Source: Pseudomonadota bacterium
GTDB taxonomy: Bacteria; Pseudomonadota; Alphaproteobacteria; Rhodospirillales; Magnetospirillaceae
Reading direction: 5' to 3'
Assembly (NCBI GenBank): GCA_021781575.1
Contig: JAJXWP010000026.1
Coordinates: 1-64,000 of the forward strand
Length of the DNA: 64,000 bases
Positions within the stretch are counted from its first letter, which is position 1; each line of letters begins with the position of its first letter. A model generated the notes under the pieces. That model was not told the origin of the DNA. It worked only from the letters and a program-made list of their open reading frames with translations, and ran no database searches. The position numbers were made by a program, and so were the translations under genes. Shown here piece by piece: positions 4,767 through 17,205 of the stretch.

Positions 4767-5558
4767 CTACCGCGTGAAATCCCGTCGATCGGTGGTCTGG
4801 ATGTGCTCGACCAGCCAATCACAGAGAAAACCGCGAACCACCATTTGCAGATCGGCCCGCCCGGACCGCACGTCGAAAATCAGCTGTTCCAGTTCCGCCA
4901 GCAGGTCGCGGTGATGGGCCACATGTTCGCTGGCTTCGGCGCCTTTCGACAGGCGCGCCTCTTCCTCGTGGAAATGGTGCCAAACCGTACGTCGCAAGCG
5001 CTCCAGCAGCGCGTCGGTCTCGGCCTGGTCGCACCACGAGGGCAGACGCGCCAGTTCGTTCAGCGTGTCGACAAGGGCCCGGTGGTGACGATCGATCCAT
5101 TTGACACCCAGTTCCAGATCGGCGCTCCAGGCGATCAGCGCGTCCTGCCCATCCGCGTGCGAAGTCAGGGCCGGCAGATCGCCGTCGATTTCCTCCACCG
5201 CGGGATCCGGCAGGAAACGCCGCACCGCCTTGAACATCTGGAACCAGTGGATGCCGGTGCCGGCGGCAAAATCGGTGAGAACCCTGTCGATCTTGCCGAT
5301 CATGTCGGTGTAGTCGGCCAGGCGTTGCGGCTGGTCGCCCCCGTGTTCCCGCGAATATTTCAGCTCTTCGTCGAAATGCAACGTGGCTGCCCCGCGGAAT
5401 TCGGCAAGCCGCCGGGCCAGCAGGGAGGTCTCGGCGCCAAGCCGCCACAGATGAGCGATCTCGTCGGCCCGCTCGGCCAGCGCCGCGCGACTTTCGGCGA
5501 TGGCAGCCCCCTTCTTGACGGGTGTTTCGTCCGCTGGCTCTACCGGCCGGATAGTCAC
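4767..5558 (-). CDS. Bacteriohemerythrin-like protein with extra N-terminal domain
   Basis: A 263-aa soluble protein whose C-terminal half is a complete hemerythrin domain. The diiron ligand set is visible: D156/H159 in the first helix, H195 and E199 in HFHEE, H212 and H216 in HVAHH, and H252 with D257 in WLVEHIQTTD. Such domains bind O2, NO or iron. The N-terminal half (residues 20-115) is helical and contains an HxxxE pair at 61-65, so it may be a decayed second hemerythrin-like bundle. The start is GTG with an AGGG site 6 bases upstream. It is a single gene between livK and the RND operon. Confidence 0.85.
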   Translation of the reverse strand: MTIRPVEPADETPVKKGAAIAESRAALAERADEIAHLWRLGAETSLLARRLAEFRGAATLHFDEELKYSREHGGDQPQRLADYTDMIGKIDRVLTDFAAGTGIHWFQMFKAVRRFLPDPAVEEIDGDLPALTSHADGQDALIAWSADLELGVKWIDRHHRALVDTLNELARLPSWCDQAETDALLERLRRTVWHHFHEEEARLSKGAEASEHVAHHRDLLAELEQLIFDVRSGRADLQMVVRGFLCDWLVEHIQTTDRRDFTR

Positions 5559-12748: not shown

Positions 12749-13816
12749 TCAGCCTGATCGACCCGATGCGAGAAGAGTGCGCACACGCTCCCCGGTGGCG
12801 GGATGGCTGTGCAGCCAGCGCAAAAGGGGTTGGTCCGGCGGAGTCGAGAAGGTGGTGCCGCCGTGATGGTGCTCCAGTTTGTGGAGAGCGCTGACCAGTG
12901 CCTGCGGGTCGTCGACCAACTCCATCGCCGTCGCGTCGGCGTCGAACTCGCGGATCCGGGACAACGCCAGGTGAAGCAGCCGTCCGATGGCGGGAGCGCC
13001 GTTGAGCAGCAGCGTCAGCGGCGCGTCGGCCTCGGCCGGGCGGGGGCCTCTGCTCCGTAGCGACAGGAGACCGAGCAGCGAAGTCATCGCCGTGGCACGA
13101 TGGAGGGTCCCGGCCAATGTCATCGCCCAGGCGTCGTTGTTGCGGATATGGCCCACCTCATGGGCCAGGATGGCCCGCAGTTCGCCGGCCGACAGGCCCC
13201 GCAGCAGGCCTTCGGTCAGGGTAATGGCGGAAGCCGCGGGCCCGCCCAGGGCGTAGGCATTCATGCTGTAGGGGGCGGGGATGAGATAAAGCGCCGGCAT
13301 CCGGGGCAAACCGGCCCGCTGGCAGATGAGACGAAGCATATCGAACAGGAACGGCGTCTCGGCAGGCGTGAGCGGCCGCGCTCCGAAGCGCCGGCACATC
13401 GCAGCGGGCGTGATCGTCGCCTCGCCGTCAAGCGGCGCCGCGCCGCGCACCGCCCACCGCGCCCCCTCGTCTCCGCCCATGACCCAGCCGCAGAAGGCGA
13501 GCAGAAAGATCATCGCACCGATCACCAGACCCGATCGCCGGTGGTTGACCGCACGATGAACGCGACGCTGGAGGTGCGGAAGATCTCCGGCTTCAGCCTG
13601 AATGCGGCAACACAGATCAAGGCCCGGCCGTCCGGAGGGGATCCGCATTTCGACGGTCACCATGTCGCCGGATACCGTGACGGCGGGTGTGCCGCTGGCG
13701 GCCTGCCCACCGGGGGCCAGGGCGACCGAGACGGAACATCTTCCCTGTCGGCCGGGTGAACGACCGGTCAGATCGATATGCCATACCCGCGCACCCAAGC
13801 CGCCTAGATGAGACAA
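12749..13816 (-). CDS. M48-family zinc metalloprotease
   Basis: A 355-aa membrane-associated peptidase related to HtpX/Oma1. The zinc motif HEVGH occurs in ILAHEVGHIRNNDAW, and a candidate third ligand Glu is in REFDADATAME further on. One hydrophobic segment (SGLVIGAMIFLLAFCGWVMG) sits near residue 100, fewer than the four of HtpX. The only start giving this length is TTG at 13816 with an AGAGG site 7 bases upstream; internal starts would remove about 50 residues without harming the catalytic domain. The N-terminal 95 residues match no family I recognise. It ends against the shared hairpin. Confidence 0.8.
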   Translation of the reverse strand: MSHLGGLGARVWHIDLTGRSPGRQGRCSVSVALAPGGQAASGTPAVTVSGDMVTVEMRIPSGRPGLDLCCRIQAEAGDLPHLQRRVHRAVNHRRSGLVIGAMIFLLAFCGWVMGGDEGARWAVRGAAPLDGEATITPAAMCRRFGARPLTPAETPFLFDMLRLICQRAGLPRMPALYLIPAPYSMNAYALGGPAASAITLTEGLLRGLSAGELRAILAHEVGHIRNNDAWAMTLAGTLHRATAMTSLLGLLSLRSRGPRPAEADAPLTLLLNGAPAIGRLLHLALSRIREFDADATAMELVDDPQALVSALHKLEHHHGGTTFSTPPDQPLLRWLHSHPATGERVRTLLASGRSG

Positions 13817-13931: not shown

Positions 13932-13961
13932 TTGGGCGCCGGAGTTTCCCCCGGCGCCCAA
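13932..13961 (-). terminator. Terminator of the subtilase operon
   Basis: TTGGGCGCCGG (13932-13942) pairs with CCGGCGCCCAA (13951-13961) around an 8-base loop, about 40 bases past the subtilase stop. On the minus strand it is followed by ATTTCAATTATT, a moderate U-rich tail. Confidence 0.6.
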
Positions 13962-14000: not shown

Positions 14001-15821
14001 CTATATCCCGGCCAGCATCATCGCCGAGCGGAGTTCTTTAAGGCTTGCCTCGATCGGCATCGCCGGGGCGACCGGCGGCGCTTCCGCCGAAAGTGGCGCG
14101 AGTCCGATGGAGGCCGGGCCGCGCGGTGGCTCCCCGGCCTCCGCTCCGTCGCTGCCCGCCAAGCCGGCCAGCCGCATCGCTTGGCGCAACTGGTCGAGCC
14201 CCGGCATCTCGCCGGAGCCCCTTTCCATGCGCCGCGTCGGACCAAGTGGCTGCTCGAGCCCCAGGGCGCAGGGCGCGTCGACCAGGCCATTGCCGGTCCG
14301 CGCCGGGTCGCCGAAGGAGCGGGCGGTTTCCTTCAGAATCTGAAACAGGCGCTCGACCCGCGTCGCGTCACGCCTGGCGTAGCCGCTTTGGAAATCGGCG
14401 TGATGGCCGAGCACCAGTGCCGCCAACGCCGCGACATGGGAAGTGGCGATGGAAGTTCCGTCCCAGGCGGCATAGCCGTCCGGCGCCTGGCAGGACAGGA
14501 TCGCGACGCCGGGCGCGGCCACGTCCACCTCCGGCCCGCTGGAGGAAAACGCCGGCGTGAACGGCCCGTCGGCGGTGTCCGGGGCCGCGACATATGCGGC
14601 GGCCGGACTGTCTTGGGGAAAGACCCCGGCCTGCCCGACCGCGCCAACCGCCAGGACATGGGGCGAGCAAGCCGGAAATTGCACCGCGCCACCGCTGCTG
14701 CCGGCGGCGGCGATCAACGCCATGCCGTTCTGTTTCGCCGCGATGATCCGCTGCTCGACGATAACCGAACCATGGTGGCCGCCGTATCCCAGGCAGGCGA
14801 CGTCGATCCCCGTCGATCGACAATAGTCGAGGGCCGCCACCAGGTCACTGCAATGAGCCGCGAGCGGAAGCCGGCAGACATGCAATTCCGCGTCGCCCGC
14901 ATAGCCGCGCATCGCCACCACTTCCGACCGCCGGGCGGCGATAATGCCGGCGCAGGCGGTGCCATGCCCGGTCGGATCCTCGGCCCACGAGCGTTCCTTG
15001 CCGCCGGTACAATCGAAGCCCTGCCCGATCCCCTCCAACTGCTTGTGAGCCGTGGCCACGCCGCTGTCGATCAAAGCCACCTTGACGCCGGCGCCGCCAT
15101 AGGCGGTGGGCAACCGGTCGAACCGCACGACATGTCCGCCCCATCCCGTCTCCGTGAGATCGAGCCGCTTCAGCGGAACCGCGTTGACCGTGTCGGACCG
15201 AAGTCGCGGCCGGTCGATGCGCAGCCCCCAATAGCCGGCCCGCGGCGTCACCACCAGTGCCGCCACCGTCTCGGCCGGCTCGCCGTGCAACGTCAGCACC
15301 GCCTTCCCATCGGCGCCGGTGGTTGCTTGCGCCATCCCCTGCCGGCCAAGCAACTGCACGGCAGCCCGATCGACCGGCTCGTCGCCTTCGCCCATCACCA
15401 GGATGGTGGCGGTCAAATCAGCGCCCAACGCCATGCTCGCGCCCGGCCGGGGAAACGGCCAAGGGGCGCCGGCGGCAGCCAGCAATGGATGATCCGCTTC
15501 GATCAGCCAAGTGGCCTTTTCCGAGCGTTGCAATGCCTCGGCCCGTTGCGGATGCATTTCCACCACCACCACCACGCCCGCCCCTGGCCCCGGCCCGGCG
15601 GCCAGGCTGCGGATGACATCAACTCCGTCGAGGGCGCGCAGGTATTCTCTGGCGTCATCCTCGCCCAACCCGGCGCGGAGAGGCATCATCATGTATCGAC
15701 GGCGGCGGCTCTCGACGCGCTGCCGAGCACCGGCCCGCGCGGCCGCCGCTTCGCCGCTCGCCTTGGCCGCAGAGCGCGCAGGCGCCTCGCCCCCACGGGA
15801 ATCTTCCTGTTTCGCGTTCAT
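14001..15821 (-). CDS. Subtilisin-like serine protease (S8) with duplicated C-terminal motif
   Basis: A 606-aa S8-fold protein with no signal peptide. The catalytic triad is visible: D252 in ALIDSGV, H286 in TGHGTACAG, S457 in WDGTSIATSHVAAL. The oxyanion position (normally Asn in AAGN) is Ser375 in AAAGSSGG, which may lower activity or change its specificity. Residues 1-50 are charged and Ala/Arg-rich; 130-200 resemble a small beta-sandwich domain. The tail repeats the pattern LxxLRxAMxLAG[LI] at 542-554 and 594-606, the second copy ending the protein. It is the last gene of a three-gene operon, 9 bases after the 164-aa gene, and that neighbour or the Gln-rich protein is a candidate substrate. 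Confidence 0.85.
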   Translation of the reverse strand: MNAKQEDSRGGEAPARSAAKASGEAAAARAGARQRVESRRRRYMMMPLRAGLGEDDAREYLRALDGVDVIRSLAAGPGPGAGVVVVVEMHPQRAEALQRSEKATWLIEADHPLLAAAGAPWPFPRPGASMALGADLTATILVMGEGDEPVDRAAVQLLGRQGMAQATTGADGKAVLTLHGEPAETVAALVVTPRAGYWGLRIDRPRLRSDTVNAVPLKRLDLTETGWGGHVVRFDRLPTAYGGAGVKVALIDSGVATAHKQLEGIGQGFDCTGGKERSWAEDPTGHGTACAGIIAARRSEVVAMRGYAGDAELHVCRLPLAAHCSDLVAALDYCRSTGIDVACLGYGGHHGSVIVEQRIIAAKQNGMALIAAAGSSGGAVQFPACSPHVLAVGAVGQAGVFPQDSPAAAYVAAPDTADGPFTPAFSSSGPEVDVAAPGVAILSCQAPDGYAAWDGTSIATSHVAALAALVLGHHADFQSGYARRDATRVERLFQILKETARSFGDPARTGNGLVDAPCALGLEQPLGPTRRMERGSGEMPGLDQLRQAMRLAGLAGSDGAEAGEPPRGPASIGLAPLSAEAPPVAPAMPIEASLKELRSAMMLAGI

Positions 15822-15830
15822 CGCACCCTC

Positions 15831-16325
15831 TCAATGAGTCATGAAGGTGGCCGCCCCGAACTGACCGGCCGTGTCTCCGACCGTGTGGAGTGGTGGCAGT
15901 TGCGGGTCGGCATGCCGCAATGCGGTGACTTGCCGATAGACCTGCCAGATCAAGGCGAATGCCTGCCCGTAGTCGCGAGCCGCGTAGCAGCGCGCCGCCT
16001 GGGTAACGGTGGCGACGCAGGAGTCCAGGCCACCATGGCGTCCGGCATTGGCTTCCATATAGGACGACAGGGTCCGCAGGCTGTCGGCGGCCATGTCCTG
16101 GACAAACGTCACCGCCGCCTCATGGTCGATCATCGGATCCTGCGACATGGAGGCCGGGAACTGCGGCGCCTGGGCGGCAAACGGTCCGACCGGCGCCGAC
16201 GTCGCCGCCTGGACGCTGAGCAGCAGCGGCACCAGGCTGCCCAGGAGAGCGACGAGTCTTTGGGCATCCGGGGGCGACAGCGCGAACCCCGCGCCCGACG
16301 GCATCGGGGAATTGGGATATGCCAT
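15831..16325 (-). CDS. Unknown 164-aa protein with hydrophobic repeat-like motif
   Basis: No family recognised. The start at 16325 has a strong AAGGAG site 7 bases upstream; the longer frame to 16493 runs into the preceding gene and is rejected. Residues 15-39 (LSPPDAQRLVALLG-SLVPLLLSVQA) resemble the repeat in the upstream Gln-rich protein (LSPQEVGDVVRQLVPLLPQIL). The rest is mixed helical with two Cys (DSC, ARC) and a region rich in Ala and Gln. There is no signal peptide. It lies between the Gln-rich gene and the subtilase gene, so a shared process is likely. Confidence 0.7.
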   Translation of the reverse strand: MAYPNSPMPSGAGFALSPPDAQRLVALLGSLVPLLLSVQAATSAPVGPFAAQAPQFPASMSQDPMIDHEAAVTFVQDMAADSLRTLSSYMEANAGRHGGLDSCVATVTQAARCYAARDYGQAFALIWQVYRQVTALRHADPQLPPLHTVGDTAGQFGAATFMTH

Positions 16326-16349
16326 GGGATGTCTCCTTCCTGAAAGGGA

Positions 16350-16391
16350 CCGGGGAACCACCGCCGGACAGGCCTCGTGGTGGTTCCCCGG
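16350..16391 (-). terminator. Intercistronic hairpin
   Basis: A perfect 13-bp inverted repeat, CCGGGGAACCACC at 16350-16362 and its complement at 16379-16391, in the gap between the Gln-rich gene and the 164-aa gene. It lacks a T-tract in the direction of transcription, so partial termination or mRNA 3'-end protection is more likely than full termination. Confidence 0.55.
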
Positions 16392-16404
16392 CAGGACCGA
16401 ACCG

Positions 16405-17205
16405 CTACATCGTGCGCTGCTGGGTGAATGCCTGCAGGTTGCCGATGACCTGAGGAATGATGCTGACCAGCTGCCGCACCACCTCACCAACATCCTGCTG
16501 GGTCAGTTGCCGCGACTGCTGTCCCCACCCCATCTGGCCGCCGAAGGCCGCCTGTATCGGCGGCAACCCCTGCTGGCCGAAAGGCTGCTGCATCTGGGTC
16601 TGGGCGAATGGATTCTGGGCGAACGGATTCTGGGTGAGTTGGTGCTGAGGGAACGGAGACTGCCCGGAAGCCGTCTGGCCGAACTGCCCCGTCGCACCCT
16701 GGGATCCCCAACCGCCGTAAATGGCCGCCGCCTGCTGCGGCATCTGGCCCTGCAGCAGGGTGACGATCTGCGGCACCATGGGCAGGATCTGGCGGACGAC
16801 TTCGTTGACATCCTGTTGGGTCAGCATCCGCTGCGGCTGTCCATAGCCATAGCCGAACGCCGCCTGGGGCTGTTGCTGTGCTTGAGCCAGGATCTGCGGC
16901 AGCAGCGGCACCAGTTGGCGGACCACGTCACCGACCTCCTGCGGCGACAGCTGCCGTTGCTGCTGCCCCCAGGCGGTCGTGGCCGCCTGGCCCCAAAGGC
17001 CCGTCGTCGTCGGCTGGCCGAACTGCTGCCCTCCGTACTGGCCGTATTGTTGTCCAAAGGCGGCCAATCCCGGGAGCTGCCCCGAAGCCGGTTGGCCCAT
17101 ATTGCCAAGATGTTGACCACCCGCCGGGCTTTGTTGCCCAAAGGGCTGCCCCCATTGTTGCGGGAATTGTTGGGAAGCCTGCTGCTGGACGTCGTAATAG
17201 GTCAT
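16405..17205 (-). CDS. Gln-rich protein with three hydrophobic repeats
   Basis: A 266-aa protein of unknown function. About a quarter of residues are Gln, with many Gly, Pro, Ala and Phe (GQQFGQ, NPFAQ). Three copies of a 25-residue motif occur at about residues 84-108, 126-150 and 232-256, consensus [RL][Q]L[ST]xQ[ED]V[GN][ED]VVRQ[LI][LV]xx[VLI]PQ[IV], each an amphipathic helix. There is no signal peptide or membrane segment. The ATG has a GGAGAGG site directly upstream. It leads the operon with the 164-aa protein and the subtilase. Self-assembling or phase-separating behaviour would fit the composition, but that is inference. Confidence 0.72.
   Translation of the reverse strand: MTYYDVQQQASQQFPQQWGQPFGQQSPAGGQHLGNMGQPASGQLPGLAAFGQQYGQYGGQQFGQPTTTGLWGQAATTAWGQQQRQLSPQEVGDVVRQLVPLLPQILAQAQQQPQAAFGYGYGQPQRMLTQQDVNEVVRQILPMVPQIVTLLQGQMPQQAAAIYGGWGSQGATGQFGQTASGQSPFPQHQLTQNPFAQNPFAQTQMQQPFGQQGLPPIQAAFGGQMGWGQQSRQLTQQDVGEVVRQLVSIIPQVIGNLQAFTQQRTM

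Follow-up and report, generated by a model that had tools for sequence, protein, structure and literature searches.

A Gln-rich repeat protein, a small helical protein and a subtilase as members of a putative, patchily spread operon family

The question raised by the locus considered here is whether three neighbouring genes in a 64,000-nt stretch of contig JAJXWP010000026.1 (hereafter the window, to which all locus coordinates refer) serve a common function, and which one. The genes encode a Gln-rich repeat protein (g1), a small helical protein (g2) and a subtilase (g3) and lie co-directionally on the minus strand, with 9 bases separating the stop codon of g2 from the start of g3. A first-pass annotation had described this three-gene locus, its coordinates and its spacing correctly, with plausible ribosome sites, and had proposed a functional link between the genes, which is strongly supported by the finding of the repeat gene upstream of the subtilase in 26 of 27 compared loci. 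With evenly balanced confidence, the locus is read here as a member of an operon family that is, as far as found, unnamed and patchily spread, with g1 and g3 as invariant core and with the three proteins forming a complex. That g1 and g3 work together is very highly probable, while a direct binding of g1 by g3 is somewhat favoured. The features of the locus are the following.

16405..17205, minus strand: g1, Gln-rich repeat protein of 266 amino acids (aa); open reading frame (ORF), ribosome site judged by eye
16876..16959, minus strand: g1 repeat 1 (aa 83-110); motif scan and self-match
16750..16833, minus strand: g1 repeat 2 (aa 125-152); motif scan and self-match
16432..16515, minus strand: g1 repeat 3 (aa 231-258); motif scan and self-match
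16350..16391, minus strand: 13-bp hairpin between g1 and g2; folding of an 82-nt stretch
15831..16325, minus strand: g2, helical protein of 164 aa; ORF and AAGGAG site
16206..16289, minus strand: g2 segment (aa 13-40) with a marginal copy of the g1 motif; averaged-matrix scan only, the hidden Markov model (HMM) being silent
15888..16100, minus strand: g2 region resembling the actinobacterial 'mid' proteins (aa 76-146); hhalign
14001..15821, minus strand: g3, subtilase of 606 aa; Peptidase_S8, E 2.6e-28
15477..15716, minus strand: I9-like N-terminal domain of g3 (about aa 36-115); resemblance and low-confidence model
15174..15422, minus strand: Ig-like (Big_1/CarboxypepD_reg-like) domain of g3 (about aa 134-216); Big_1 matches of relatives and beta-rich model region
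14322..15095, minus strand: S8 domain of g3 (aa 243-500) with D252, H286 and S457, and Ser375 at the oxyanion Asn site; Pfam and alignment
14160..14198, minus strand: g3 tail motif 1, LDQLRQAMRLAGL (aa 542-554); motif search
14004..14042, minus strand: g3 tail motif 2, LKELRSAMMLAGI (aa 594-606, extreme C-terminus); motif search
13932..13961, minus strand: intrinsic-terminator-like site about 40 bases 3' of g3; terminator scan

The two tail motifs, the I9-like and Ig-like domains of g3, the hairpin between g1 and g2 and the terminator-like site after g3 had not been mentioned in the first-pass annotation.

The linkage was assessed in 27 subtilase loci (the window, L008, L006, L007, L011, L036-L052, L167-L170 and L171), which were picked by the subtilase alone and not by its neighbours and include near-duplicates (e.g., L040, L041, L042, L170). 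Apart from the window and the low-GC prophage (L171), these loci belong to Actinomycetota. The repeat protein is encoded upstream and co-directionally, with at most a g2-like and an I9-like gene in between, in all of them except L049, where the contig ends, and a g2-like gene is present in 22 of the 27, the window counted. Moreover, a g2-like profile hit the identical 18 of 120 Streptosporangiaceae genomes as the subtilase and none of the 102 others; 16 of the 18 genomes had supplied this profile, and the real test therefore consists of the 102 empty genomes together with G676 and G683. Among 183 genomes of the class of Nonomuraea, seven were matched by the g2-like profile, all of them subtilase-bearing and four of them (G676, G802, G821, G848) outside the profile. 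The g2-like protein was used as a proxy here, since the low complexity of the Gln-rich gene precludes a search for it, and neither genome set contained it in a subtilase-free genome.

The idea of a dedicated protease-substrate system, which had been suggested from the window, stands with regard to the dedicated link but not with regard to a simple pair of protease and substrate, as 6 of the 27 subtilases have lost the catalytic His and/or Ser while the repeat gene is kept, and purifying selection is visible in the Streptomyces-type ones. Ser is replaced by Thr or Ala in L006, L007, L011 and L080, both His and Ser are lost in L052, and His is changed to Arg in L045. As the first four form one clade (100/100), the catalytic losses number at least two and probably three. 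In these Ser-less Streptomyces-type subtilases, the ratio of non-synonymous to synonymous substitution rates (dN/dS) amounts to 0.21-0.29 (five pairs) compared to 0.23-0.46 in five pairs with intact triad, the pairs not being independent of one another, and these low values point to purifying selection and maintained genes. Since g1 and g3 stay paired even where the catalytic Ser is gone, binding g1, holding it or remodelling it is a likelier invariant function than destroying it. The window g3 (D252, H286, S457) belongs to the members with a complete Asp-His-Ser triad, 17 of which have the oxyanion-hole Asn and four, the window among them, a Ser in its place. Owing to this Ser375, the window g3 may be a weak protease; the replacement lowers the claim of full activity, not that of membership in the S8 fold.

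The small protein g2 may be connected with the C-terminus of the subtilase. The motif LxxLxxEMxxAGL or a close form of it occurs once or twice beyond the S8 domain in 22 of the 27 subtilases, compared to an expectation of 0.01 from shuffled tails, and the window g3 carries it twice (LxxLxxxMxxAG[LI], with Ala for Glu), the second copy constituting its final residues. The subtilases without the motif are the four Streptomyces-type ones and the prophage protein, and a g2-like gene is missing from precisely these five loci, which fits a binding of g2 to the tail. No g2-like gene was found between g1 and g3 in L006, L007, L011 and L080/L169 (ORFs read in this interval only), and in the prophage L083/L171 there was none among the ORFs between g1 and g3, a profile search of the whole record being empty as well. 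The tail motif is also absent from three outgroup subtilases.

According to the favoured explanation, g1, g2 and g3 would form a single complex, presumably in the cytoplasm, in which the amphipathic helical repeats of g1 would be recognised by g3, and g2, present where the subtilase has the LxxLxxEMxxAGL tail, would dock on this tail. The repeat protein would act as scaffold or client and would probably be made in excess, and the I9-like domain of g3 would be its folding or inhibitor domain. In most lineages, g3 would probably carry out a limited cleavage of g1 or of a protein that g1 delivers, whereas in the Streptomyces-type clade and two further proteins it would only bind. This explanation is drawn from the linkage in 26 of the 27 loci, the co-occurrence in 18 of 120 genomes, the tail motif, the residue losses, the purifying selection, the hairpin and the amphipathic repeats. 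Several findings weigh against it. The retention of D, H and S in 21 of the 27 members argues that cutting usually matters, and the match between g2 and the tail motif goes back to just two phylogenetic events or lineages. The g1 sequences are so divergent that their common homology rests on position and pattern and not on alignment. Besides, the window g3 has no firm position in the tree (end branch 1.63), and a subtilase search at 1e-50 in 288 other genomes of the class gave the window no relative with this operon.

A more far-reaching version is offered only tentatively and has to be regarded as rather doubtful as a whole: the fast-evolving g1 would be a cytoplasmic scaffold held and remodelled by a subtilase that has repeatedly given up its protease activity, g2 would be an adaptor binding the tail, and the module would move between phyla on plasmids and prophages and may act in phage conflict or stress. 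A role in conflict is suggested by the prophage site, by the occurrence on plasmids and by the weak match between the Nonomuraea protein and IetS, whereas the stable site beside stress-like genes in one actinobacterial clade may speak for a stress or housekeeping role. If the favoured explanation is true, the operon family, probably spanning three phyla, ties an uncharacterised repeat protein to a subtilase that turned pseudoprotease more than once and thereby offers a natural experiment on roles of subtilases other than cutting. Two contacts are then predicted, one of g3 with the g1 repeats and one of g2 with the LxxLxxEMxxAGL tail, and names would be put on orphan genes that are not covered by the family libraries searched.

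Among the competing explanations, a plain maturation of a substrate by its protease is unlikely; in this case, the subtilase would cut the Gln-rich linkers and free amphipathic peptide copies with a function as toxin, pheromone or surface-active agent. The multi-copy amphipathic repeats with linkers, the near-identical tandem copies in L051 and L047, the triad left intact in 21 of the 27 subtilases and the hairpin after g1, which suits a precursor made in excess, agree with this. Nevertheless, neither an exporter nor a modifying enzyme was seen to recur in the neighbour clusters, which cover 19 of 20 loci (L006 left out) and were read by eye and not run against family libraries. Moreover, no conserved cut site was seen, the repeats differ strongly between genomes, and the repeat gene is kept beside pseudoprotease members. 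A phage defence or cell-death module, in which an infection signal would set g3 on g1, or release g1 from g3, so that the helices of g1 harm the membrane as gasdermins do once a protease has activated them, or which would be a relative of IetAS, is likewise judged improbable. In favour of it, the low-GC member lies between a prophage integrase and an AimR-family regulator, which is a usual place for cargo, copies occur on Streptomyces plasmids, a transposase-like gene adjoins L169 (by eye), and the spread is patchy (18 of 120, 10 of 296, the window alone among 289). In addition, Gly-rich hydrophobic stretches are found in some g1 proteins (L036, L167), and the subtilase of Nonomuraea (L008) weakly matches the PADLOC model of IetS, for which no cut-off is given (22.3 bits, E 8.9e-6). 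The window g3, however, is assigned to the general 'subtilase' model of PADLOC (E 3.9e-17) and reaches just E 0.061 with IetS, and no AAA ATPase was detected among the four window neighbours scanned with Pfam. A known sensor is missing in the operon, the highest hydropathy over 19 residues of any g1 is 1.66 (L171; the value of 1.81 in L037 falls before the gene proper), and in one actinobacterial clade the operon has a conserved syntenic position among genes that resemble housekeeping and stress genes.

A mycosin-like part of a type VII secretion system is very improbable: the mycosin model (MycP, TIGR03921) is the best NCBIfam match of g3, but the score of 104.4 bits stays far below the cut-off of 278.75, and in contrast to mycosins, g3 has no visible signal peptide, an additional Ig-like domain and a repeat protein as partner. 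Genes of an ESX or other secretion system were not noticed by eye in the neighbour clusters or in the annotated stretch of L006, for which no family-model search was made. An encounter of three unrelated genes by chance could invoke the low complexity of g1 and the orphan-like g2 in the window's own order and class, but with a linkage of 26/27 and 18/18 it is scarcely credible any longer and refuted in practice. Of all these, the complex of g1, g2 and g3 is retained as the favoured explanation.

Peptidases with a dedicated partner protein are known as a kind, while the components of this operon and their combination were not found described; a description of the operon was not found in the literature by title or abstract, subscription papers and preprints being mostly outside the coverage. 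The mycosins are an earlier example of a subtilase whose importance goes beyond cutting: the protease activity of MycP1 is reported to be dispensable although the mycosin is required for ESX function (PMC5082899). The Csp germination subtilases mix active and dead members within one family, judging from the NCBIfam model names, and their models NF040809 and NF040808 match g3 weakly (18.9 bits at a cut-off of 1250 and 16.7 bits at a cut-off of 675, respectively). To our knowledge, no repeat protein partner of Csp subtilases has been described. One of them, CspB, is reported to keep its prodomain and to have gained a jellyroll domain (PMC3567191). The trypsin-like peptidases with Trypco1/2 of the VMAP ternary conflict systems resemble the present case by the co-occurrence of a peptidase with a small neighbour gene, but they possess another peptidase fold and are centred on an NTPase, whereas no conserved NTPase was noticed by eye in the operon neighbours. 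The IetAS defence system, which contains a subtilase and has the AAA ATPase IetA as partner, has been considered above. Bacterial gasdermins are small effectors encoded beside a protease, and no gasdermin match was obtained with Pfam in g1 or g2. Two further candidates were rejected, namely QhpE (NF049966, 47.3 bits at a cut-off of 165) and the cyanobactin protease PatA/PatG (TIGR03895, 25.4 bits at a cut-off of 421.05).

Concerning the spread of the family, a genome-wide scan with g3 reaches close relatives only, and in the named genome collection it yielded a single one, Nonomuraea sp. G32 (39% identity over residues 2-554); a plasmid search with g3 gave two Streptomyces plasmids, one of them with a second copy. 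The subtilase profile searches were cut at E 1e-60, weaker relatives being excluded by choice. At this limit, a profile of four subtilases (window included) detected the enzyme in 18 of the 120 genomes from Streptosporangiaceae, the family of Nonomuraea, and a profile of 18 subtilases did so in 10 of 296 genomes of the class of Nonomuraea, six of the ten being among the 18. In the order, class and phylum of the window, whose genome sets overlap, no match to the window subtilase appeared at E 1e-20 among 198 further genomes of the order, and 199 further phylum genomes contained one match at 1e-40, a borderline relative without repeat gene (G1104, L164). Viral contigs included one full relative, located in a prophage record with 33% GC (L083/L171), 80 of 177 matching loci having been kept and 79 set aside unread as general S8 matches (E 1e-24 or weaker); phage and plasmid tblastn matches that cover mostly the S8 domain were set aside as well, two of the weaker plasmid matches being opened. 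The prophage operon (L171, 8478-10791) is placed between the integrase and the AimR-family regulator, and the low GC content together with the AimR and DUF3231 genes of the record suggests a host within the Bacillota. With this presumed host, the operon family probably spans three phyla.

In a syntenic actinobacterial clade (L037-L048, L076), the operon lies near genes for a universal stress protein, an Hsp20-like protein, a DUF1876-like protein and an ATP-dependent DNA ligase (names given by eye), and these flanks represent one ancestral place of the operon. Subtilases with the same order of I9-like, Ig-like and S8 domains as g3 (by reading) are also found in L164, L165 (Variovorax plasmid) and L166 (Rhizobium plasmid; Big_1 weak), but these form a separate clade (support 100/99) and differ by the lack of the tail motif and of a Gln-rich ORF within the stretches of 4-9 kb. 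The subtilase gene of L166 is followed by one for an 81-aa, possibly I9-like protein (5142-5384) and by tyrosinase, DUF2182 and DJ-1 genes.

With regard to the subtilase itself, the S8 domain is the sole Pfam domain of g3 and well above the cut-off (99.6 bits compared to 21.8, E 2.6e-28), the identity to 17 relatives amounts to 34-43%, and no signal peptide is apparent by inspection, in agreement with the earlier designation as a signal-less subtilase. The N-terminal domain resembles small stand-alone proteins whose genes immediately precede the subtilase gene in at least six loci (L008, L049, L050, L051, L167, L171); four of the six were aligned, and those of L049 and L050 cluster with subtilases by BLAST. 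No Pfam I9 match was obtained for this domain. In a low-confidence model, its strands and helices follow the order b-a-b-b-a-b, which is that of the I9 propeptide fold, and the name I9-like goes back to this order and to the resemblance to the stand-alone proteins. Big_1 matches with E values of 0.1 or better were obtained for 15 of 18 family members, though not for the window g3 itself, and the g3 model was poor (mean predicted local distance difference test, pLDDT, of 46.6; three sequences) and kept out of the fold search.

The repeat protein g1 consists of 25.6% Gln and contains three motif copies (at aa 86, 128 and 234) within diverged, helical segments of 28 residues, each of them amphipathic, with 14-16 of the 28 residues in common; its best self-match score is 106, compared to a maximum of 52 among 500 shuffles. 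The three copies noted by the first-pass annotation in g1 are thereby confirmed, whereas the looser copy claimed for g2 is marginal: the averaged-matrix scan located it at aa 16, but 17 of 2000 g2 shuffles were as good and one unrelated ORF of the window scored higher, and an HMM of the three g1 repeats gave no signal in g2, 2904 of 3065 reported shuffles scoring as high. The common motif is accordingly weak evidence for a functional link. As had been noted before, neither small protein could be assigned to a known family: g1 and g2 had no match at the curated cut-offs of Pfam and NCBIfam, the E-value limits applied to PADLOC and PHROGs left none either, and no well-described family with another role was found for either.

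In the g1-position proteins of 21 tabulated loci, Gln accounts for 6-37% of the residues, so that Gln-richness is common but not universal (8% in L050, 6% in L167). Many of them start with MTF or MTY, the start codon having been picked by the analyst in several cases, and by eye they comprise one to five helical segments, often with the pattern [hydrophobic]-x-P-x-[D/E] followed by a hydrophobic helix, as in the window (LSPQEVGDVVRQL), L047 (MVPADVVNTIVDL), L171 (VQPQDVWSEAGKI) and L038 (ILPQEHVLSPVTFW). This form is not clear in the proteins of the Streptomyces-type, L045, L052, L167 and L168 loci, and the likeness across loci is to be understood as one of pattern, from which a common origin may be suspected but is not proven. 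The repeat protein can evolve faster than its partner (L006 and L007 share 43% identity in g1 and 74% in g3), while in closer locus pairs both identities are similar. In the repeat gene of L051, near-identical tandem segments QVDPAGLLPLLEKLFSLFQQQGPSG resemble an array of amphipathic peptides, and near-identical tandem copies also occur in that of L047. In each of the four Streptomyces-type loci (L006, L007, L011, L080), the repeat gene is directly preceded by a stretch that reads MSRNVFLVGWWFAA or a close form in one frame and that may act as a leader or regulatory element or belong to a mobile element.

Regarding g2, the actinobacterial small proteins at the same operon position align well with one another, and aa 76-146 of the window protein match their 'mid' profile with an hhalign probability of 60.6 (E 8.3e-5). 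Weak matches of g2 in the order and class of the window (L003, L005) were discarded as chance matches: each contains a stop codon and runs, over all or part of its length, antisense to a long gene. The model of g2 (mean pLDDT 62.9, two sequences, i.e., of low to middling confidence) has a helix at residues 18-42, a linker and three helices at 68-139; a comparison with known structures returned only common helical bundles, a FliS chain (Z 10.4) being tied with designed bundles, and Foldseek gave no match at E 0.001. TPR matches of g2-like proteins were weak (2 of 16 members; SRP72, E 0.0058) and not relied on.

At the level of expression, a plausible ribosome site is visible by eye before g1 and another, AAGGAG, before g2. 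The 82-nt stretch between g1 and g2 folds with a minimum free energy of -38.7 kcal/mol (z -2.18; 6 of 200 shuffles equally low), and its hairpin is a possible partial terminator or mRNA processing site. The single terminator-like site after g3 compares with a shuffle mean of 2.4, so that the match alone is weak, but its position fits. Together with the terminator-like site, this hairpin gives the three genes the appearance of a single operon in which expression may step down after g1. The four neighbours scanned with Pfam are ordinary: an EAL-domain protein, a cytochrome b561, a divergently encoded PAS-histidine kinase and, downstream, an M48 peptidase. The M48 peptidase gene (12749-13816, minus strand) lies about 180 bases downstream of g3 on the same strand, beyond the terminator-like site. 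Upstream of the Nonomuraea operon, a gene for a protein of 429 aa (L008, 5163-6449) was taken by eye for an AAA/STAND-type ATPase, with no match in Pfam or PADLOC; it would be of interest if the operon proved to resemble IetAS. The window furthermore contains RND-pump genes, which mark it as Gram-negative in type.

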